The translations under genes were made by a program, and so were the position numbers. Shown here piece by piece: positions 52,809 to 64,000 of a DNA stretch of 64,000 nucleotides (positions within the stretch are counted from its first letter, which is position 1; every line of letters starts with the position of its first letter). The notes beneath the pieces were generated by a model. The model ran no database searches and had not been told where the DNA came from. It worked only from the letters and a program-made list of their open reading frames with translations. The DNA comes from Stenotrophomonas maltophilia. GTDB lineage: Bacteria; Pseudomonadota; Gammaproteobacteria; Xanthomonadales; Xanthomonadaceae. The DNA lies in the NCBI RefSeq assembly GCF_004684085.1, contig NZ_SRHZ01000051.1:1-64000 (forward strand), in the 5' to 3' direction.

Positions 52809-53798
52809 ATGACGTTCAAAGCGCTGCTTACACGCAAGACCAACGATGAGGTTTCGACCGAGCTGGTCGATTTTGATGAGGCCGATCTGATGGACGGCGA
52901 CGTCCTGGTACAGGTCGAGTACTCCACGCTCAATTACAAGGATGCGCTGGCACTGAGCAACACGCGTCCGGTCATCCATAGGTTCCCGCTCATTCCTGGC
53001 ATCGATCTGTCGGGTGTAGTGCTGGAGTCCAGCAACACCGGATTCAAACAGGGCGACCGCGTGGTGCTGAACGGCTGGGATCTCAGCATGGGCCACCACG
53101 GAGGTCTGGCACAGCGCGCCCGCGTGCGTGGCGAATGGCTCAACCGGATTCCTGGCAACCTGAGCACCCGCGACGCCATGGCCATCGGCACTGCTGGATA
53201 CACTGCCATGCTGTGCGTGCTGGCGCTGGAAGATGCCGGGCTGACGCCCGAGAAGGGCGATGTGCTGGTGACCGGCGCCAACGGTGGCGTCGGCTCGATC
53301 GCGGTGGCGATCCTTTCGAAGCTTGGCTACCGCGTGGTGGCCGCCACCGGACGTCCGGAACACGCCGGGTATCTGCACGGCCTGGGTGCGGCCGAGATCA
53401 TTGATCGCGCCCAGCTTTCGGAACCGCGCGACAGGCCGGTGAGTGCCGAGCGCTGGGCAGGTGTGGTGGATGTGGCTGGCGGCCCCACCCTCGTCAACGC
53501 CATTGCCGAGACGAAATACCGCGGTGCAGTTGCCGCCTGCGGACTGGCCCAGAGTGATGCGCTGCACGGCTCGGTGCTGCCCTTCATCCTCCGCAACGTG
53601 ACCCTTGCGGGCGTGGATTCAGTGAATGCGCCGCAGGAGGTGCGTCAGCGCGCGTGGGATCGTCTCGCCATCGATCTGGATCCGCAGAAGCTGGAAAGCA
53701 CCGTGCAACTGATCGGGCTTGCCGAGGTGCTGGACGTCTACCAGCAGATCATTCCAGGCAAAGTTCGTGGGCGGATTGTTGTGGATGTCAACGCCTGA
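52809..53798 (+). CDS. zinc-free alcohol dehydrogenase-like quinone/acrylyl-CoA oxidoreductase, YhdH/YhfP (AcuI) family
   Basis: A 329-residue MDR enzyme: the family start MTFKALLTRKTND, LNYKDALALSN, and the NADPH-binding VLVTGANGGVGSIAVAILSKLGY at about 150-173; no zinc ligands. AcuI/YhdH members reduce acryloyl-CoA or small alpha,beta-unsaturated compounds. ATG at 52809 has GAGG 8 bases upstream. The divergent HxlR gene suggests induction by an electrophile. Confidence 0.9.
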   Translation: MTFKALLTRKTNDEVSTELVDFDEADLMDGDVLVQVEYSTLNYKDALALSNTRPVIHRFPLIPGIDLSGVVLESSNTGFKQGDRVVLNGWDLSMGHHGGLAQRARVRGEWLNRIPGNLSTRDAMAIGTAGYTAMLCVLALEDAGLTPEKGDVLVTGANGGVGSIAVAILSKLGYRVVAATGRPEHAGYLHGLGAAEIIDRAQLSEPRDRPVSAERWAGVVDVAGGPTLVNAIAETKYRGAVAACGLAQSDALHGSVLPFILRNVTLAGVDSVNAPQEVRQRAWDRLAIDLDPQKLESTVQLIGLAEVLDVYQQIIPGKVRGRIVVDVNA

Positions 53799-54699: not shown

Positions 54700-57459
54700 A
54701 TGTCTATGGAATGGCGCCCCTCAGGCTGGGGCCAGCGTGTGAACCGCTCGCCGAACTGGCGATTGCGGCTTGATGGCGAGCACGTCGAGCTCATGATCGG
54801 GGATAGACCGTACCGGGAGCACGTGAATGACGACCATCGCCTGCAGGTCACTCGTGGGCTGTTCTGGTCCACGGTGGTGCTGCAGACCGAAGGCGGTGAC
54901 ACGCTTTCCGTGGATGGGCTGCCCAACGGCCAGGCCTCCCGACTTGCGGCTGCTGTACAGCACGTGCTCTTCGCGCGCACCACGCGTGGTCGTAGGGCAC
55001 TCTTTGAAGCCCTCCTGGAGCAGATCCAGGCGTGGCTGGCCGAGGCAGATGCGCTCACCGACCGGGGCGCTACCGGCCGCCGCTGGATCAGCCACGAACA
55101 GCAGCAGGCGCTGCTGGCCGACCGACCCACCCTGCCCCTTCAGCCAGACGAACTGGAACGGCTGTTCCTCGATGAGAATGTGCACGAGGACCTGCATTCG
55201 CCCAGCCACCGCGCCGCACTGGACGCCCTGCACGACTGGCAGCTGGACTGGCCCGCCGTGTGGGCCGACGCCAACGCGACCATGGCAACACGCGAACTGG
55301 AGCTTGCCAAGGAGTTCCTGGACCGGGTCGAGAGCAAACCCCTGACCGAGGAACAGGCGCGCGCCGTATTCTGCTTCGACAATCGCGTGCAGGTCGTGGC
55401 TGCGGCCGGCTCTGGCAAGACATCCACCCTGGTCGCCAAGGCCGCTTATGCCATCGATCGCGGCTTTGTCGATCCCGAACGGATCGTGATGCTCGCCTTC
55501 AACAAGGACGCCGCGAAGGAGCTGGAAGAGCGCGCGCAGCGATCCTTCGACCGGCTCGGCATGGGCAACACCGTGGTGGAGGCCCGGACCTTCCACGCCC
55601 TGGGCCTGGCCATCATCGCCAAAGCCACAGGGCGCAAGCCCGACATCCCGGATTGGACCATCGACGCGACGCTCGGCTTCAACAAGCTGGCCGAACTGGT
55701 GGACGACCTGAAGGATCGCTCGACCCACTTCCGCACCCAATGGGACATGTTCCGTCTGGTGTTCGGGCGCGATCTGCCGCCATTCGGCGCGGAAATGGAT
55801 GCCGATGGTTACGACCGCGATGGCTCGCCCTATATCCGCACGCTGCAGGGTGAGCGGGTGAAGAGCCTGGAAGAGTGCGTGATCGCCGACTGGCTCTTCT
55901 ACAACGGCGTGACGTATGACTACGAGCGACGCTACGAATTTGATACGGCGACCGACACCCACCGCCAGTATCGCCCGGACTTCTACTATCCAGACGCCCA
56001 GCTGTATCACGAGCACTTTGCGCTGGATGCCGATGGCCAACCGCCGAAGCACTTTGCCAACTACAGCGAAGGGATGCACTGGAAGCGCCAGCAGCATGTG
56101 GCGCGCGGCACCGCCCTGGTCGAGACGACGTCGTTTGGCCTGCGCAGTGGACATGCCCTGCAGGATCTAGCAGACCGGCTTGGCGCGTCTGATGTCGAAC
56201 TCGACCCGAACCCGGACCGCGAGCTGCCTGATCAGGGCGCCAAGCCGATGCCGGACGCGGACCTGATCGGCTTGATGCGCACCTTCATTGCCCATGCCAA
56301 GAGCAACTGCCTGACCCTGGACGATATGGCCGCGCGCTTGCGGCAGATGCCCGAGGATCAGTTCAAGGAGCGATATCGTCGCTTCCTGGAAATCGCAGGG
56401 CCGGTTTTCCAGGCCTGGGACAACGCACTGGCTGACGAGCGCAGCATCGACTTCGAAGACATGCTCAACATGGCAGCCGGGCTGCTGGAACAGGGCCACT
56501 ATGAATCACCCTACGAACTGGTGATGGCCGACGAATTCCAGGACGCATCACGCGCCCGCGCACGCCTCTGCCGCGCCTTGGTCAGCCGCCCCGGCCGCTA
56601 TCTGTTTGCGGTGGGCGATGACTGGCAATCGATCAACCGCTTCGCCGGTGCCGACGTTTCGGTGATGACCGGATTCCGGGAGTGGATGAGGCATGGCCAG
56701 GTGCTGAAGCTGGAGCAGACGTTCCGCTGCCCGCAGGCACTGTGTGATGTTTCCAGCCGCTTCATCAGCAAGAACCCGGCGCAGATTGCCAAGGAAGTTC
56801 GCTCTGCTGCGCCGGCAATGGGCCCGGTGCTACAGGCGTTCCAGATGACTCGGCGTGAGGAGGTGCAGGATGGCGTTCGTCAGTACCTTTCGAAGCTGCA
56901 CCAGCAACTGTTGTCAGGTGCGGTGCCGCAGGGCCGCAACGGGCGCGTAACTGTATTCATTCTGGGGCGGTATCGCGCGGATCGCGGTGCAGTACCTTCG
57001 CATTGGAAGACGGCCTTCGGCAGTACGATGGACGTCGAGTTCCTCACGGTCCATCGGTCGAAGGGACGCGAGGCGGACTACGTTGTTCTGCCGGGCATGG
57101 TCAACCGCAGCTTCCCGAGCCTGCGCGCGGATGATCCGGTGCTTTCGCTGGCAATGCCGGACGGCGACACCTATCCGCTGAGCGAAGAACGGCGCCTGTT
57201 CTATGTAGCACTGACGCGTGCGCGGCGGTCGGTTGCGATGTTCACCCTGCAGGGGAAGCATTCGCCGTTCCTGGATGAGCTGGTGCGGGACGGCGCGGTG
57301 GAAGTGACCGCGATTTCAGGCGCGGCCATCCACGAAGAGCGCTGCCCGGTGTGCAAGGTGGGGGTGTTTGTGGACCGCAATGGGCCACATGGAGCTTTCC
57401 GGTCGTGCTCCAGTTACCCGTTGTGCCATAACAAGCCGAAGGGTGGGCGACGCGGGTAG
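54700..57459 (+). CDS. UvrD/Rep-type superfamily 1 helicase, HelD (helicase IV)-like, with nuclease-like insertion and zinc finger
   Basis: A 919-residue DNA helicase. The N-terminal 220 residues resemble E. coli helicase IV. Walker A AAGSGKTST is at about 235-243 and motif II (MADEFQDASR) near 607; motif VI is LFYVALTRARRSVAM. Between 1A and motif II, YRPDFYYPDAQLYHEHFALD (about 422-442) looks like a PD-(D/E)xK nuclease core, absent from E. coli HelD. The last 40 residues form a topoisomerase-type C4 zinc finger (CPVCKVGVFV...CSSYPLC). Probable role: recombination or repair. Confidence 0.88.
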   Translation: MSMEWRPSGWGQRVNRSPNWRLRLDGEHVELMIGDRPYREHVNDDHRLQVTRGLFWSTVVLQTEGGDTLSVDGLPNGQASRLAAAVQHVLFARTTRGRRALFEALLEQIQAWLAEADALTDRGATGRRWISHEQQQALLADRPTLPLQPDELERLFLDENVHEDLHSPSHRAALDALHDWQLDWPAVWADANATMATRELELAKEFLDRVESKPLTEEQARAVFCFDNRVQVVAAAGSGKTSTLVAKAAYAIDRGFVDPERIVMLAFNKDAAKELEERAQRSFDRLGMGNTVVEARTFHALGLAIIAKATGRKPDIPDWTIDATLGFNKLAELVDDLKDRSTHFRTQWDMFRLVFGRDLPPFGAEMDADGYDRDGSPYIRTLQGERVKSLEECVIADWLFYNGVTYDYERRYEFDTATDTHRQYRPDFYYPDAQLYHEHFALDADGQPPKHFANYSEGMHWKRQQHVARGTALVETTSFGLRSGHALQDLADRLGASDVELDPNPDRELPDQGAKPMPDADLIGLMRTFIAHAKSNCLTLDDMAARLRQMPEDQFKERYRRFLEIAGPVFQAWDNALADERSIDFEDMLNMAAGLLEQGHYESPYELVMADEFQDASRARARLCRALVSRPGRYLFAVGDDWQSINRFAGADVSVMTGFREWMRHGQVLKLEQTFRCPQALCDVSSRFISKNPAQIAKEVRSAAPAMGPVLQAFQMTRREEVQDGVRQYLSKLHQQLLSGAVPQGRNGRVTVFILGRYRADRGAVPSHWKTAFGSTMDVEFLTVHRSKGREADYVVLPGMVNRSFPSLRADDPVLSLAMPDGDTYPLSEERRLFYVALTRARRSVAMFTLQGKHSPFLDELVRDGAVEVTAISGAAIHEERCPVCKVGVFVDRNGPHGAFRSCSSYPLCHNKPKGGRRG

Positions 57460-58400: not shown

Positions 58401-59450
58401 CTATCTGACTGGGAAGTGAGACTTCGAATTAGGTAGCGTTTTCCCGGAGAGCGGATCTACGCCTTGCTTTCCAGCATTCTCGTACTTGATGTAGCCAGCT
58501 GGATATCCAGGACTGTTTCCCCTGGGAGGGGTTGGGTCCATCATCCGCATGGTGGCTACTTGCCCATTGCTGCCTCCGGCACCCCCAGTAAATGCGACGC
58601 CGGTCTGTTTTCCTGCAGGGTTGATGACTGGAGTTGGTCCGCTCGCTCCTGTGGGTACCGGAAATGCTGTTCCGTTCGATGAGATGACATAGCTCGGGCC
58701 AGAGGGTGTCGCGGGAGCAGCGGCAGGAGTTTGCGCAGAGGGCGCTGCCGGTGCTGGCAGGGCCAGTGGTTGCGCCGAATTAATTGAGCCAGACATTGCC
58801 GATGCAACAGCAGGCCCAACAACTGGCGTCGCCCGCACAATCGCTGTTGTTACCGCAAGTGCTGCAGGGCCGAACGTATCATATGCCGAGGGTGAGCTCG
58901 CCACCGAGTCGGCATGTCTCTCCGCCGCCCGTTCCTGGCGACCATCAGGATCAACGAATCTGTAGGGATTGCCCGCAGCGTATCGATAGCGGTTGAAGGC
59001 GGAGCCTGGTTTGTTGTTTGGTGAAACGGGATCAACAGAGAGAAAGAGCCCTAGTTGGGGATCGTAGTAGCGCTGCTGCATGTAGCTTAGCCCCGTGGCA
59101 GCATCGCTTACGTGCCCAGTGTAGCCAGGCCCATCCATAACCGGTCCGTCCACGACACCCCCGTAGGGCTCGTAGTCGTACCGTTTGATCACCTTGCCAG
59201 CTTCATCGGTTTCGGCAACGACCGAGCCAAGTGCATCGGTATGGATGTAAGTGACCGCCTGGGCGCTTGCAGTTGGCGTCAGCATCAAGCCAACCAGCAG
59301 AACGCAGCAGAGCCAAGCACCCAAGACGCTCGTCTTGCTGAAACGCGTTCTCATGACCCTTGCGCGGACAGGGGGTACGCACGCAGCTCTCTCAAGCCGT
59401 CTCATCCTTCCAATCCCTGAAAGAGCCTTCCAGCAAGGCATTGCCTTCAT
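58401..59450 (-). CDS. short RHS-repeat core protein with C-terminal toxin domain and own signal peptide
   Basis: About 349 residues. After a signal peptide (LGAWLCCVLLVGLMLTPTASAQ) comes directly the RHS core (YIHTDALGSVVAETDEAGKV; RYYDPQLGLFLSVDP; NRYRYAAGNPYRFVDPDGR), with no upstream YD repeats. A Pro/Ala-rich linker leads to a variable tip (about 260-349: GYPAGYIKYENAGKQGVD, LPNSKSHFPVR) that is the likely toxin. GGAG 8 bases before the ATG at 59450 supports that start; ATG at 59354 just before the signal peptide is the alternative. The tip family is unknown to me; the immunity gene follows at 58392. Confidence 0.78.
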   Translation of the reverse strand: MKAMPCWKALSGIGRMRRLERAACVPPVRARVMRTRFSKTSVLGAWLCCVLLVGLMLTPTASAQAVTYIHTDALGSVVAETDEAGKVIKRYDYEPYGGVVDGPVMDGPGYTGHVSDAATGLSYMQQRYYDPQLGLFLSVDPVSPNNKPGSAFNRYRYAAGNPYRFVDPDGRQERAAERHADSVASSPSAYDTFGPAALAVTTAIVRATPVVGPAVASAMSGSINSAQPLALPAPAAPSAQTPAAAPATPSGPSYVISSNGTAFPVPTGASGPTPVINPAGKQTGVAFTGGAGGSNGQVATMRMMDPTPPRGNSPGYPAGYIKYENAGKQGVDPLSGKTLPNSKSHFPVR

Positions 59451-59917
59451 ATCACAGTCTCCATCGGCGTGACGACCGAAGGTGGTGCAGAAAGAGCACC
59501 CTATGAAGTGCGCAGGCGTGGCGGGGAGACGAGTGCGCACGCCGGGGTAAGCATGGCGCCGGGCCCCTGCGCCCCCATCTGCTCCACTGCCTCTCAACCG
59601 CTTCTACTGGCCGCTAACGCGCAGCAGTTCCTGGGTTGGGGCTTGCCTGGGCGCCGATGCTGCTACGCACGCTCATGGCCCTGCGCACGCGCCGCCTCAT
59701 TTCGTAACGGCTGTCAGAGGCGGTGGTGTGGGAGCGGCGTGCTTCCCGATGCGCACAGGCTCGCTATCTGAAACTGCTTGCGTGCACCATCACGTCTCCA
59801 GGTGCTGCCCTATTGCAACTGCCGTGAGCGGCACTCATACGCGCTGGTCGAGCTGCTGATAGGCCAGCAATCAACGGATTGACGAAGTATGGGTCCACAT
59901 ACGAACCCAAGAAAAAA
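59451..59917. other. 467-bp gap between RHS gene and island end
   Basis: No supported gene. The frames here lack ribosome sites and show no family similarity. It probably holds the RHS promoter and degenerate chromosomal sequence. Confidence 0.4.
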
Positions 59918-59948: not shown

Positions 59949-59966
59949 TGGCGGAGAGAGTGGGAT
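59949..59966 (-). other. tRNA-Ser 3'-end fragment, putative island attachment site (att)
   Basis: Read on the minus strand, 18 bases end in CTCTCCGCCA and match the T-arm/acceptor 3' end of a bacterial tRNA-Ser (from memory). No full tRNA precedes it. Mobile islands that integrate into a tRNA 3' end leave such a copy at the far junction. The terminator just beyond it and mobilization genes on the other side support this reading. Confidence 0.6.
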
Positions 59967-59997
59967 CGGATCACCACGGATCTAACCAATTCTCTCC
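59949..59997 (-). other. tRNA-Ser-like minihelix at the island end
   Basis: On the minus strand, GGAGAGA (59991-59997) can pair with TCTCTCC before the G-CCA end. Between them lies a degenerate T-arm (GTGG...CCCAC), with no D-arm or anticodon arm. This 49-base unit mimics the top half of tRNA-Ser. It may be chance, a decayed tRNA, or an integrase-binding dyad. Confidence 0.35.
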
Positions 59998-60292
59998 GTT
60001 GCAGAAAGCCTGTTTGACAGGTTTCCTTTGGATGTTTCCTCGATCATAGCCAGTCTTGGGTACGGTTGGTACTGCTTCCCCGGATGACCAGGCCTCCCAG
60101 CGATGGAGGAGCGGTCGGCTAGCAATCCAGCCAACCAAGGCGGCCCGATGGCCGCAGGGGCGGAGATACATCTAAGGATGAGATCTATGGTCGAATTGGA
60201 TGTTCAGATATGTGAAATTTCTCTCATTTCTCATTTGGCGACTATGGGCATGGGTGCTTGGATAGGCTTTCTACCAACGAAAGGAAGGCTCT
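59998..60292. other. 295-bp island-end region
   Basis: No convincing gene; a 66-codon minus-strand frame that ends next to the att copy (59971-60171) lacks a ribosome site. The rest may hold integrase arm sites and the promoter of the gene at 60293. Confidence 0.35.
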
Positions 60293-60658: not shown

Positions 60659-62203
60659 TTATGGACTCGGCGCCGACGGACGCGATGTCGGACCAGGCCG
60701 AGGCACCAGCGGGCCCTTGCGCACCGACGGCGACACGAATGGGGGGAACTCGCCGCAAGACTGAGCCAACTCCGACGCTTGTTGAAGGATGTCTCTTTCG
60801 GCGGCGTCCAGCGCCGGCTGAGTCGCCATCTCTTGGGCCTTAGCCAACTCGATTGACCGCATCTCGAGCACAGCCAGACGCCTCTCTCGGCGTTTGGCCC
60901 ATTCCTTGGGCGACCACTGGCTCCCTTCTCGTGGGTGGTCCGCGTTGAAGCTCTCCCACTGCTGCTGCGCCATGTGGTGAAGACGGTCTGCTCGCCGGAC
61001 CGCGCTCTCCCTCCGCCCCCTTCTCAGAAACGCCTGCTTGAGCGAGCGGATCTTGACCGCAACAGGTGCGACCAACGGGTGTGCCTGGGCGGTGTCACCA
61101 AAGCGGACCACGTGACGGCGCACACCTGCAAGCCACTCCCTAACAACGCCCAAAGCCAAATCAGCGCGGGCCTGGGTAATCTCCCACAGGTCTCTCAGTG
61201 CAACATCAATCCACTCGAGGCAGTTCCACTGCCTCGGGGGGCGCTCTGGCCTCAAGACACCGTTCTCAATGGGAGGTAGGCGAATGCCCATCACTCCCTC
61301 AATCCTGAGATCGCCGACCGCGAGGAAGGGCGCGGCAGACTTCTGCTTGGCTCGCTCAGCGAGGGCAGCCCGGTGATCGTGCGTGGGAGGAAGTCCAATG
61401 GCACGCCCCTCAGCCACAGCGTCTTGGATCAGCGATTCGAACTCTTGGTCGTTTTCCTGCTGAATCGACAGGTTGGTCTCTTCAACCTGGGTGGCCTGAC
61501 CTCTCCTGGCAAGCGCCGTCGCGACCTTTCCTTGATGACGGGTAGGCTCCCTAGAGAGCAGCGTTGCCCGAATCGGATCACCGTTCAACAATGCTGTCTG
61601 GGACTGCTCCTCCAAGCTACGATGGTCCACGCGGGAACGGATGCCAGCCGCCTCCAGATACGAGTTGATCGTGGACGCCACGGCCTCGCGAACCCACTCC
61701 ACCTCGATACGCCCCGTCGGACCACCATCCAGCTCTGTGGTCTTGTCACCAAACCTCTCTCCGGTGATCCGTCGTGTGCTTGCCAGGATGTGGACGTGGT
61801 GGTTCACACCGTCAGTGGTTGGCGGCGAATGGATGCTTGCTTGGACGACGAACCCATAGCGGGCTACCAACACGTCAGCAATCGCCCAAGCAAGTTCACT
61901 GCGCTGTTCGGTATCGAGCTCGTGTGGCAGCGACACTTCGAACTCGCGTGCAATCGTTGCGTCTTTGCGACGCTCGGCCGCTTCGACCGCGGGCCAGAGT
62001 TCGCCTGGAATTAGGGCCCATGGCGGCGCTCCTGGAGGGCCCAAGCAGCTGCTTGCGACGACGCCACCGCGGCGCCGATAGTCGTGCACTTGTCCTGTCT
62101 GAAAGTCTTTAAGGCGCAGGCCGCCGCGATAGGCGGCCGCTGCGACGGCGGACTGGCCTCGCGCACGGCTGAAGGTTTTGACGCTGGTGTGGTAGATAGC
62201 CAT
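60659..62203 (-). CDS. MobA/MobL-family relaxase (MOBQ)
   Basis: A 514-residue relaxase. The N-terminus MAIYHTSVKTFSRARGQSAV leads to AAAYRGG with the probable nicking Tyr at residue 25. EFEVSLPHELD near 88-97 and the metal-binding HHVHIL at 135-140 complete the MOBQ signature. The rest is charged and helical without a primase motif. It would nick the oriT-like site just upstream and pilot the strand into a recipient using another element's conjugation pore. GGAG precedes the ATG at 62203. Confidence 0.92.
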   Translation of the reverse strand: MAIYHTSVKTFSRARGQSAVAAAAYRGGLRLKDFQTGQVHDYRRRGGVVASSCLGPPGAPPWALIPGELWPAVEAAERRKDATIAREFEVSLPHELDTEQRSELAWAIADVLVARYGFVVQASIHSPPTTDGVNHHVHILASTRRITGERFGDKTTELDGGPTGRIEVEWVREAVASTINSYLEAAGIRSRVDHRSLEEQSQTALLNGDPIRATLLSREPTRHQGKVATALARRGQATQVEETNLSIQQENDQEFESLIQDAVAEGRAIGLPPTHDHRAALAERAKQKSAAPFLAVGDLRIEGVMGIRLPPIENGVLRPERPPRQWNCLEWIDVALRDLWEITQARADLALGVVREWLAGVRRHVVRFGDTAQAHPLVAPVAVKIRSLKQAFLRRGRRESAVRRADRLHHMAQQQWESFNADHPREGSQWSPKEWAKRRERRLAVLEMRSIELAKAQEMATQPALDAAERDILQQASELAQSCGEFPPFVSPSVRKGPLVPRPGPTSRPSAPSP

Positions 62204-62464: not shown

Positions 62465-62776
62465 ATGACCGCCACCAATCACTACCATGAGCGCATCCAG
62501 AGGGCCACCGAGCGGCTCGCCCAGCTTCAGGCGCGCGAGCTGTTGGCATCACAACGTCAAGCGAGCAAAGCCAGGCAAGCCCAGCGTCAGGAAGAAGCGC
62601 GCCGCCGACGGCGTGTCGCAGCGCTGGTTTACTTGGCTGCAGCGGAAACACTGGATGACGCAGAACTGTTGGGCGCGCTTTTGATCCACCAGCAGAGCCG
62701 CAGCGATGATGAGATCCGAAAGGATGCTCGCGTCGTCGGCAAGGCGAAGCTGCAGGACTCCGTTGCTCCACCTTGA
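62465..62776 (+). CDS. mobilization/conjugal transfer protein, TraD-like (small helical)
   Basis: A 103-residue charged helical protein: HERIQRATERLAQLQAREL, a basic coiled segment with RRRRRVAALV, then AAETLDDAELLGALLIHQQ. It resembles small TraD/MobC-like accessory proteins encoded next to MOBQ relaxases. AAGGA 7 bases before the ATG at 62465 decides the start. It faces away from the relaxase gene across the oriT region and may assist relaxosome formation. Confidence 0.75.
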   Translation: MTATNHYHERIQRATERLAQLQARELLASQRQASKARQAQRQEEARRRRRVAALVYLAAAETLDDAELLGALLIHQQSRSDDEIRKDARVVGKAKLQDSVAPP

Positions 62777-62972: not shown

Positions 62973-63214
62973 ATTCCTCTCTCCAGGTCAGTCACCGGCT
63001 GGTGACAGCCATAAGCTGCGCTCGAACTCGCAGCGAAGCAAGCGGCCCAAACGACCTCCCACCAACGGCGGCACACTGCCTTTCCCCACTCGCCTATCGA
63101 ACCACCGCTGCCTCACCCGCGCCTCGGCGCGTATTCAGTTCCCCGTCCCACGATGTGCGCTTGTCAAATATCCACCCCCGGTGCAGAGTTACGCGATCCA
63201 CAGGGGGATGGGCA

Positions 63215-63517
63215 ATGGAACGCTCGGAGTTTGTTATTGATCGCAGTTTGTATAGCGACGAGGTGGTCACCAGGGCCGCCCACCGCCATACCGAAAGCTG
63301 TGCCGTAGAGATTTTTGTCCGAGGCAATGACTTCGTGGTTGCTCTGCAGCCGCGGCAAAGTCCGGTGTCGGCGGAAGAACTGCATGCACAATTCTTCAAC
63401 GACCTTCTGGACGAGCGCCTGCGCGCCCTGGTGCGTGTTGAGACTCAAGGCCTTCAGCAAGAGCTGGTTCGCGCCGCACTGACCCAAGCGATGCCGTCCG
63501 GCGCGGTGGTGCCGTGA
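63215..63517 (+). CDS. hxsD: His-Xaa-Ser system protein HxsD
   Basis: A 100-residue protein matching HxsD as I recall it: IDRSLYSDEVVTRAAHRHTE, CAVEIFVRGNDFVVAL, then the C-terminal ELHAQFFNDLLDERLRALV and ELVRAALTQA. HxsD is a small partner of the radical-SAM enzymes HxsB and HxsC that act on the repeat protein HxsA. AGGGGG lies 7 bases before the ATG at 63215. Its stop overlaps the hxsB GTG start, so the two are coupled. Function of the system is not established. Confidence 0.82.
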   Translation: MERSEFVIDRSLYSDEVVTRAAHRHTESCAVEIFVRGNDFVVALQPRQSPVSAEELHAQFFNDLLDERLRALVRVETQGLQQELVRAALTQAMPSGAVVP

Positions 63518-64000
63518 GATTCAGGCCAAGGGAGGCTTTCAGCCCTTCACCAGGCTATCAACTGCTGCCGATGCGTTTCAGGCGGCTGCCTTGGGACCCC
63601 GAGAAGGCGTTCGTCTCCTCAATGGCGGGCGATTGGCTGCTCATGGGTATGGAAGACCTGCAGCGCTTCGTTTCCCACGAACTTCCGGCCCACTCGCCGT
63701 TGCTCGCCGACTTGCAGGCCCGGCACCTTGCCGTTGCGGAGACGAGCCGAAGCTCACTCGCCCCGCTGCTCAGCCAATACCGAAGCCGAAAGTCCTACTT
63801 GGTGGGCGGGCCTGCCCTGCACATCTTTGTCGTGTCCCTACGCTGCCACCACACCTGCAGTTATTGCCAGGTGTCCCGCCAGCAGACGACCGCCACCGAG
63901 TTCGATATGGCGGGAACCCATGCTCGCCAGGCGGTCGAAAGACTGTTCGAGTGGCCAAGCCAAGAACTGACGATTGAGTTCCAAGGGGGCGAGCCTCTAC
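63514..64000 (+). CDS. hxsB: His-Xaa-Ser system radical SAM maturase HxsB (partial, cut by window end)
   Basis: The GTG at 63514 overlaps the hxsD stop (GTGA) and opens a frame to the window end (162 codons visible). It contains the radical-SAM cluster CHHTCSYC (Cys111, 115, 118), the HxsB-type QVSRQQTT, FDMAGTHARQAVERLFEWPS, and the SAM-binding GGEP in IEFQGGEPL. The N-terminus has the family pattern YQLLPMRFRRL. HxsB is one of two radical-SAM enzymes predicted to modify HxsA. About 300 more residues should follow beyond the window. Confidence 0.9.
   Translation, partial: MRFRPREAFSPSPGYQLLPMRFRRLPWDPEKAFVSSMAGDWLLMGMEDLQRFVSHELPAHSPLLADLQARHLAVAETSRSSLAPLLSQYRSRKSYLVGGPALHIFVVSLRCHHTCSYCQVSRQQTTATEFDMAGTHARQAVERLFEWPSQELTIEFQGGEPL

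Follow-up and report, generated by a model that had tools for sequence, protein, structure and literature searches.

The His-Xaa-Ser (Hxs) system has carried its name since 2011. Its protein families HxsABCD (TIGR03976-TIGR03979) are attributed to Haft and Basu in the available part of PMC9062424, and the accessible parts of the open-access literature searched contained no report on Hxs chemistry or role. Among the maturases that have been described, those forming cyclophanes join an aromatic residue at position i to the C-beta of residue i+2, the bond running from His C2 to C-beta with HaaB and YhhB and from Phe to Ser C-beta with MscB (PMC11002830, in the part available). The anaerobic sulfatase maturase attacks the C-beta hydrogen of Ser or Cys and has both auxiliary clusters, according to the accessible text of PMC8326336. 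Some AhbD enzymes, as presented in the accessible sections of PMC10452713, combine the AuxII spacing CX2CX5CX20-38C with Ser at the AuxI positions, and the authors state there that no AuxII-alone AhbD had been the subject of a biochemical study.

Here we describe hxsDBCA, a complete member of this named but uncharacterised system, located in a well-marked, presumably mobile island. The window, that is, the whole stretch of DNA analysed, comprises bases 1-64000 of a 168111-bp contig (C46) belonging to a 4.63-Mb genome; the operon crosses its right edge, and positions beyond 64000 are those of the contig.

Gene content of the hxs operon

The operon lies on the forward strand and begins with hxsD (63215-63517), which encodes a small alpha/beta protein of 100 aa. 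As the sequence-only reading had described, the TGA of hxsD overlaps a GTG start at 63514 (GTGA), and the frame that opens there, uninterrupted up to the window edge, contains CHHTCSYC and FQGGEP. This frame is hxsB (63514-65007, of which 63514-64000 lie inside the window), encoding a radical SAM maturase of 497 aa whose GTG start agrees with the aligned starts in relatives. Beyond the window follow hxsC (64994-66163, 389 aa), the start of which overlaps the hxsB end by 14 bases, and hxsA (66167-66829, 220 aa), which begins 3 bases past the hxsC stop. The same reading had foretold hxsC and an hxsA with His-Xaa-Ser repeats past 64 kb; both are present, with NCBIfam scores above the cut-offs (HxsC, 362.8 bits against TIGR03977, cut-off 267.9; HxsA, 129.3 bits against TIGR03979, cut-off 121.65), and the downstream genes belong to no different radical SAM system. 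The assignment of the first two proteins to TIGR03978 and TIGR03976 was borne out for HxsB (557.1 bits for the whole protein, cut-off 370; E 1.3e-38 for the portion within the window). HxsD scored 47.1 bits, 2.9 below the cut-off of 50, in a match that exceeds chance (E 2.3e-12, positions 1-88 of 90). It occupies the expected position in the operon and is 36-62% identical to the proteins found in the HxsD position of other Xanthomonadales loci. In gene content and order, hxsDBCA is a complete Hxs operon.

A conserved leader precedes hxsD (63160-63214, forward strand). It is common to the 13 hxs loci aligned, with the elements CTTG..., GCA.AGT and GGGGGATGGGCA, and nothing in common was seen farther upstream. 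The sequence shared with relatives starts 14-35 bp (by blastn) or about 55 bp (by alignment) 5' of hxsD, and the similarity detected by blastn stops near the end of hxsA. A sigma-70 scan 5' of hxsD found no site, and we infer only that a promoter may lie within the leader. That this copy is a decaying remnant devoid of function seems scarcely credible: the slightly low score of HxsD and the existence of broken relatives (L087, L026) would fit such decay, but all four frames are open, the overlaps, starts and cysteines are conserved, and so is the leader.

The AlphaFold2 model of HxsD (pLDDT 90.5) was also compared with known structures. No function was drawn from its fold, as the best Foldseek match had an E of 0.029 and the best VIA-align match (Z 8.1, rmsd 2.2 over 70 residues) reflects just the common ferredoxin-like arrangement.

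Distribution of Hxs loci

Scanning 84,980 species genomes with a pattern, a method that detects close relatives only, gave 33 HxsB loci: 27 of the Xanthomonadales type, one of them labelled Paenibacillus, 5 from Bacteroidota and 1 archaeal. The HxsA pattern occurred in 31 of these 33, the exceptions being L026, where the HxsC frame is also only 80 aa long, and the archaeal L036. The locus labelled Paenibacillus dendritiformis (L015) lies on a 5.4-kb contig and its HxsB is 74% identical to the one described here; it is possibly a contamination of that assembly. In whole-genome searches, 14 of 91 genomes belonging to the genus have an HxsB above the cut-off. At family level the figure is 27 of 395, and in sets drawn from the class and the phylum it is 4 of 370 and 15 of 397, respectively; the four sets overlap, and each includes the window's own genome.

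HxsB also matched 480 of 72,556 plasmid records (322 from Klebsiella), with at least 80% of the query covered in 370; some of the weak plasmid matches come from radical SAM proteins of other kinds, for example quinohemoprotein maturases. Among phages there were 14 matching records out of 50,697, two of them covering at least 80% of the query, and one of these two, Leptospira phage LE1, has HxsA, D, B and C annotated. On Aeromonas plasmid 4 (L047:9272-13431) the hxs operon is followed by a gene for a small DUF5334 protein and a TnsA-like gene.

For a closer comparison we used 44 loci from 43 genomes, chosen by HxsB and many of them in the same genomes as the loci of the pattern scan. HxsC and an HxsA-type frame were each present in 43 of the 44, the exception being L087, in which hxsB is truncated, hxsC and hxsA are missing and a TraD-like gene lies nearby. 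A tblastn search detected HxsD in 33 of the 44; since HxsD diverges fast, the missing matches do not show its absence.

The HxsA array and its presumed export

HxsA of this operon contains (HRSHSS)3, that is, six contiguous His-x-Ser units, and has no cysteine. Its C-terminal end is a PG_binding_1 domain (PF01471, 47.2 bits; this copy was the one scanned). In a set of 54 HxsA or HxsA2 proteins, taken from 43 loci and 11 plasmid or phage records, every array has 5 to 7 units (five in 12 proteins, six in 30 and seven in 12). Over the 324 units, the x residue is Ser in 153, Arg in 117, Ala in 26, Tyr in 23 and another residue in 5, so that these four account for 319. As most HxsA proteins were found by their pattern of His-x-Ser units, the selection itself accounts in part for the array being contiguous and for the occurrence of an aromatic-x-acceptor motif (His-x-Ser) in 54 of 54, but not for the range of 5 to 7. 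Some Bacteroidota loci have an interrupted array and stand outside the 54. In the HxsA2 proteins of the plasmids read here, the array forms the protein end.

Cysteine occurs in 2 of the 54 proteins (L089 and L090), in both outside the array, and for the L089 protein the start chosen may lie too far upstream. Thioether chemistry within HxsA was considered and is excluded for the other 52, because they have no cysteine.

The apolar N-termini together with the wall-binding domain led us to regard HxsA as presumably exported and wall-bound. With starts chosen by rule, Lys or Arg was present in residues 2-12 of 32 of the 54 proteins and absent from 22, this copy included, and because of that absence the export signal of this HxsA is weak. 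One could suppose that the array is a metal-binding stalk, in which the modification tunes the row of His residues and a periplasmic HxsA holds Cu, Ni or Zn. Five to seven His residues spaced by three in 54 of 54 proteins, and the wall-binding domain of the copy described here, would suit that purpose, as would the copper binding of a ribosomal peptide with His-to-butyrine crosslinks (PMC10206099, in the part available). We nevertheless consider a metal-binding stalk unlikely, as no metal-handling-like protein was found among the five neighbours scanned with NCBIfam and Pfam at this locus, a weak test in that it covers the flanks of one locus.

Cysteines of HxsB and HxsC and the likely chemistry

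We compared 61 HxsB-like proteins: those of the 44 loci together with 11 from plasmid or phage records, 5 from Bacteroidota loci and 1 from an archaeal locus. The radical SAM cysteines are kept in all 61, and the AuxII motif CX2CX5CX20-38C (C421, C424, C430 and C454) in 59, the exceptions being L087 and the archaeal L036. At the AuxI position after YP, on the other hand, HxsB has Ser in 56, Thr in 4 and Cys in 1, while two other AuxI-type positions, 356 and 434, are Cys in 3 and 0 of the 61. HxsB thus matches the SPASM enzymes with two auxiliary clusters at the AuxII cysteines but not at those of AuxI. The relative from L036 (Woesearchaeota) is the reverse of HxsB, having kept the Cys after YP and lacking the AuxII cysteines. 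In HxsC, seven cysteines are invariant (60 of 60 proteins).

Beyond the cysteines, Q157 is conserved in 60 of the 61 HxsB-like proteins, and D375 and E376 in all of them. In a profile alignment with the sulfatase maturase 4k37, Q157 falls on the Gln of FQGGEP and D375 on the Asp of YPCD, residues that we take to be catalytic in that enzyme. The HxsB model is equally close to CteB (Z 29.2) and to the sulfatase maturase 4k39 (Z 28.2), which we regard as a tie; residues 18-470 were aligned with CteB 1-448 in a model of the whole protein, the N-terminal domain having been folded within it rather than alone. Against the family models of cyclophane enzymes, HxsB scored 38.2 bits for FxsB (cut-off 370), 57 for GrrM (cut-off 310) and 56.1 for YhhB (cut-off 445), and it scored higher, still far below the cut-offs, with the quinohemoprotein maturase (86.1) and the thioether maturase PapB (81.7).

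The His-x-Ser unit fits both the C-beta attack of the sulfatase maturase and the joining carried out by cyclophane enzymes. If HxsB acted as an anaerobic sulfatase maturase does, the Ser of each unit would become an aldehyde (formylglycine), giving the wall-binding HxsA a reactive row that might become attached to wall amines. The aligned Gln and Asp, the structural match to 4k39 and the 52 of 54 substrates that offer Ser and no Cys all speak for this outcome, which we still hold to be improbable: HxsB reaches 64.9 bits against the sulfatase maturase model TIGR03942 (cut-off 349.45), it has no AuxI Cys after YP in 60 of 61 proteins when the sulfatase maturase, in the part of the source available, has both auxiliary clusters, and the repeated His is left unexplained. 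We prefer cyclophane formation, which accounts for the recurrence of both His and Ser as well as for their spacing, and the best reading of the chemistry is a reaction at Ser C-beta, perhaps one that yields His-to-Ser cyclophanes. This is a reading of the mode of action and not of family membership, since no score files HxsB with the cyclophane enzymes and several models of thioether or sulfatase enzymes score higher.

The putative tRNA-Ser(TGA) island

The hxs operon sits in a putative 74.4-kb island bounded by 18-bp direct repeats. The left repeat (59949-59966, forward strand), a candidate attachment site that would mark the island's left end, equals the 3' end of tRNA-Ser(TGA), and the right copy lies within the tRNA-Ser(TGA) gene itself (134349-134438, reverse strand; ARAGORN). 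Allowing up to two mismatches, the 168-kb contig contains just these two copies, at 59949 and 134349. The 102 bp at 59949-60050 have stretches 83-100% identical in four other genomes of the genus; these matches share one starting base, and the nine bases displayed left of it differ. The GC content between the repeats, 0.599, is lower than that of positions 1-52000 (0.642) and of the sequence on the right side (0.667).

Inside the left end we found genes for a MobQ/MobA-MobL relaxase of 514 aa (60659-62203, reverse strand; PF03389, 155.1 bits, cut-off 26.7), which scores 197.5 bits against the NCBIfam MobQ model (cut-off 200), and for a TraD-like small mobilization protein (62465-62776, forward strand; PF06412, 23.8 bits, cut-off 22.3). 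A tyrosine recombinase is encoded beyond the window (71143-72579; PF00589, 43.7 bits, cut-off 27.1). It had been proposed that the operon is cargo of an island with its own mobilization genes, and the tRNA-Ser-derived 18-bp repeat, the MobQ relaxase, the TraD-like gene and the tyrosine recombinase support that proposal, as do the lower GC content and the near-empty sites of three relatives described below. A comparison of the mobilization block with PLSDB plasmids gave no near match.

The distance from a core gene (52809-53798) to tRNA-Ser is 80.5 kb here. Among 21 genomes searched, in 12 of which the core gene was absent from the matches or elsewhere, the complete relatives G062, G048 and G035 are near-empty, with 3.8, 3.5 and 4.3 kb, respectively; the distance is 9.9 kb in G040, 14.0 kb in G025, about 48 kb in G038 and about 58 kb in G043, and in G024 the tRNA match is split. 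Judged by these distances, tRNA-Ser(TGA) is an integration hot spot in the genus, ranging from near-empty (3.5 kb) to 80.5 kb. In G006 and G049, hxs shares a contig with tRNA-Ser(TGA), at a distance of about 70 and 91 kb, respectively, and has a copy of the 102-bp end beside it, so that it probably occupies this hot spot too. Other genomes, G060 among them, have hxs elsewhere. In G049 a copy of the relaxase block, 98% identical, is found downstream of hxs, whereas here it is upstream, and the hxs DNA of the two genomes is 72-73% identical. The modules have thus been shuffled. An attachment-like site in G049 has a homologue of the right end of this island on one side and a copy of the left end on the other, which suggests tandem elements in that genome.

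Other genes of the region deserve mention in their own right. Lying outside the 18-bp repeat, a helicase gene (54700-57459) gave matches to GajB helicase models with a best E of 6.3e-44. Over 2.0 kb of DNA it is 66% alike to a helicase-like gene at 124457-126451, and in G006, G049 and G019 homologues of it occur within the hot-spot stretches. On either side of the operon region are Rhs-type repeat proteins, recognised by eye: a short piece (58401-59597) and a protein of about 1540 aa (75495-80114). Two genes downstream of hxsA lies a gene for a 480-aa RES-domain protein (68667-70109; L002:6667-8109), whose N-terminus gives a weak HEPN/RES match (25.3 bits, cut-off 27.4); an Acidiphilium plasmid likewise has a RES gene and an Xre-type partner near hxs.

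Genes neighbouring hxs loci

The three nearest called genes on each side of the 44 Hxs loci, 261 genes altogether, fall into 234 clusters, and the flanks are therefore hypervariable. The gene caller was crude, missing hxsA in most loci and losing or splitting other hxs genes in some, so that the neighbour sets are approximate. One gene per cluster was scanned with PADLOC (234 of 261 for the Hxs loci and 214 of 216 for random loci; the integrase set was not clustered). The random control comprised 37 loci, seven of the Hxs loci having no counterpart, and the integrase control 20 loci hand-picked among the matches listed, one each from 20 of 40 genomes.

At E <=1e-10, the two halves of the Hxs set matched 71 and 210 PADLOC families, those of the random set 2 and 14, and the integrase flanks 110. 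PADLOC names at E <1e-70 numbered 19 among the 234 Hxs neighbours (within the best 25 of 71 and the best 25 of 210 families; 10 names in one half and 9 in the other, ThsA and ThsB being in both), 2 among the 214 proteins of random loci (complete lists) and 4 among the 96 proteins of integrase-flanking loci (within the best 25 of 110 families). Fisher tests on the same matches listed gave p values of 2e-4 for Hxs against random loci, 0.24 for Hxs against integrase-flanking loci and 0.08 for integrase-flanking against random loci; the counts are of distinct PADLOC names, two of which could be one protein, and the test takes each name as one protein. From these counts we place hxs in defence-rich mobile islands. 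A defence role deduced from the neighbours was rejected, the excess being strong against random loci but not against integrase-flanking loci.

That Hxs itself is a cassette for defence or for competition between mobile elements, acting at the cell envelope, is in our view decidedly unlikely. The 19 names against 2 at random loci, which among the matches listed include Thoeris, Gabija, DRT, AbiE and Septu-type models, would agree with such a function, as would the spread of HxsB-like matches over the plasmid records and their occurrence in a Leptospira phage. Against it, the excess over integrase-flanking loci is non-significant among the matches listed, the six nearest genes in this genome match no defence model at E <=0.001 except the relaxase, weakly (DpdH, 2.9e-6), and, among the PADLOC models, HxsD and HxsA match none while HxsB and HxsC match viperin models weakly (best E 6.9e-7). 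A bolder version, which we regard as a long shot, would make Hxs a mobile immunity or exclusion cassette of the envelope, in which two radical enzymes, one of them AuxII-only, staple 5-7 His-x-Ser units into a rigid His-Ser cyclophane rod that, once exported, is fixed to peptidoglycan and obstructs the entry of phage or competing mobile DNA. If true, this would represent a defence principle resting on a covalently hardened wall protein.

Discussion

Taking the locus as a whole, we see about an even chance that hxsDBCA, in its tRNA-Ser island, directs a Ser C-beta chemistry of HxsB, likely the formation of His-Ser cyclophanes, on an exported and wall-bound HxsA. HxsA would be made in the cytosol and bound by HxsB, perhaps through an RRE-like N-terminal domain. 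Using its radical SAM cluster and a single auxiliary cluster, AuxII, HxsB would then abstract the hydrogen from the Ser C-beta in every His-x-Ser unit. The most likely product would be a three-residue cyclophane, in which this C-beta is bonded to the imidazole of the His that precedes the Ser by two residues, and its formation would be repeated along the array. HxsC may carry out a second or complementary step and HxsD may serve as an adaptor. After export, the modified HxsA would be anchored to the cell wall through its peptidoglycan-binding domain.

What is new here is a set of constraints on the chemistry and the setting of Hxs. An Hxs copy complete within one contig offers several handles: an array of narrow size range and free of cysteine, one maturase with the AuxII but not the AuxI cysteines, a substrate that binds the wall and is presumably exported, and a location within mobile islands rich in defence genes. 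With each of these handles an open question becomes directly testable.

With respect to known systems, the island resembles the MobQ integrative mobilizable islands at tRNA genes in its relaxase, its tyrosine recombinase and its tRNA-derived direct repeat, and differs in carrying hxs. HxsB shares with the AhbD of non-methanogenic archaea an AuxII-type cysteine set and Ser at the AuxI positions (PMC10452713, in the part available), although the substrate of AhbD is a haem precursor and not a protein. The anaerobic sulfatase-maturating enzyme has in common with HxsB the aligned Gln (FQGGEP), the aligned Asp (YPSD in HxsB, YPCD in the maturase) and the overall fold; in contrast, HxsB lacks the AuxI Cys after YP, has an extra N-terminal domain and is encoded with other partner genes. 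Like the cyclophane maturases XncB, OscB, MscB, HaaB and YhhB, as far as the available part of their description goes, HxsB is encoded beside a substrate with an aromatic-x-acceptor motif, and both His as the first residue and Ser as the third are each known in characterised members (PMC11002830, same part). Unlike them, HxsB scores far below their model cut-offs, the Hxs substrate bears a wall-binding domain, and Hxs has two different maturases. Compared with the known Hxs system, HxsD is 2.9 bits below its cut-off and the gene order is D-B-C-A here and in related Xanthomonadales, with A first in Bacteroidota and HxsA2 first on some plasmids; the four components are nonetheless united in one operon, with HxsB, HxsC and HxsA above their cut-offs.
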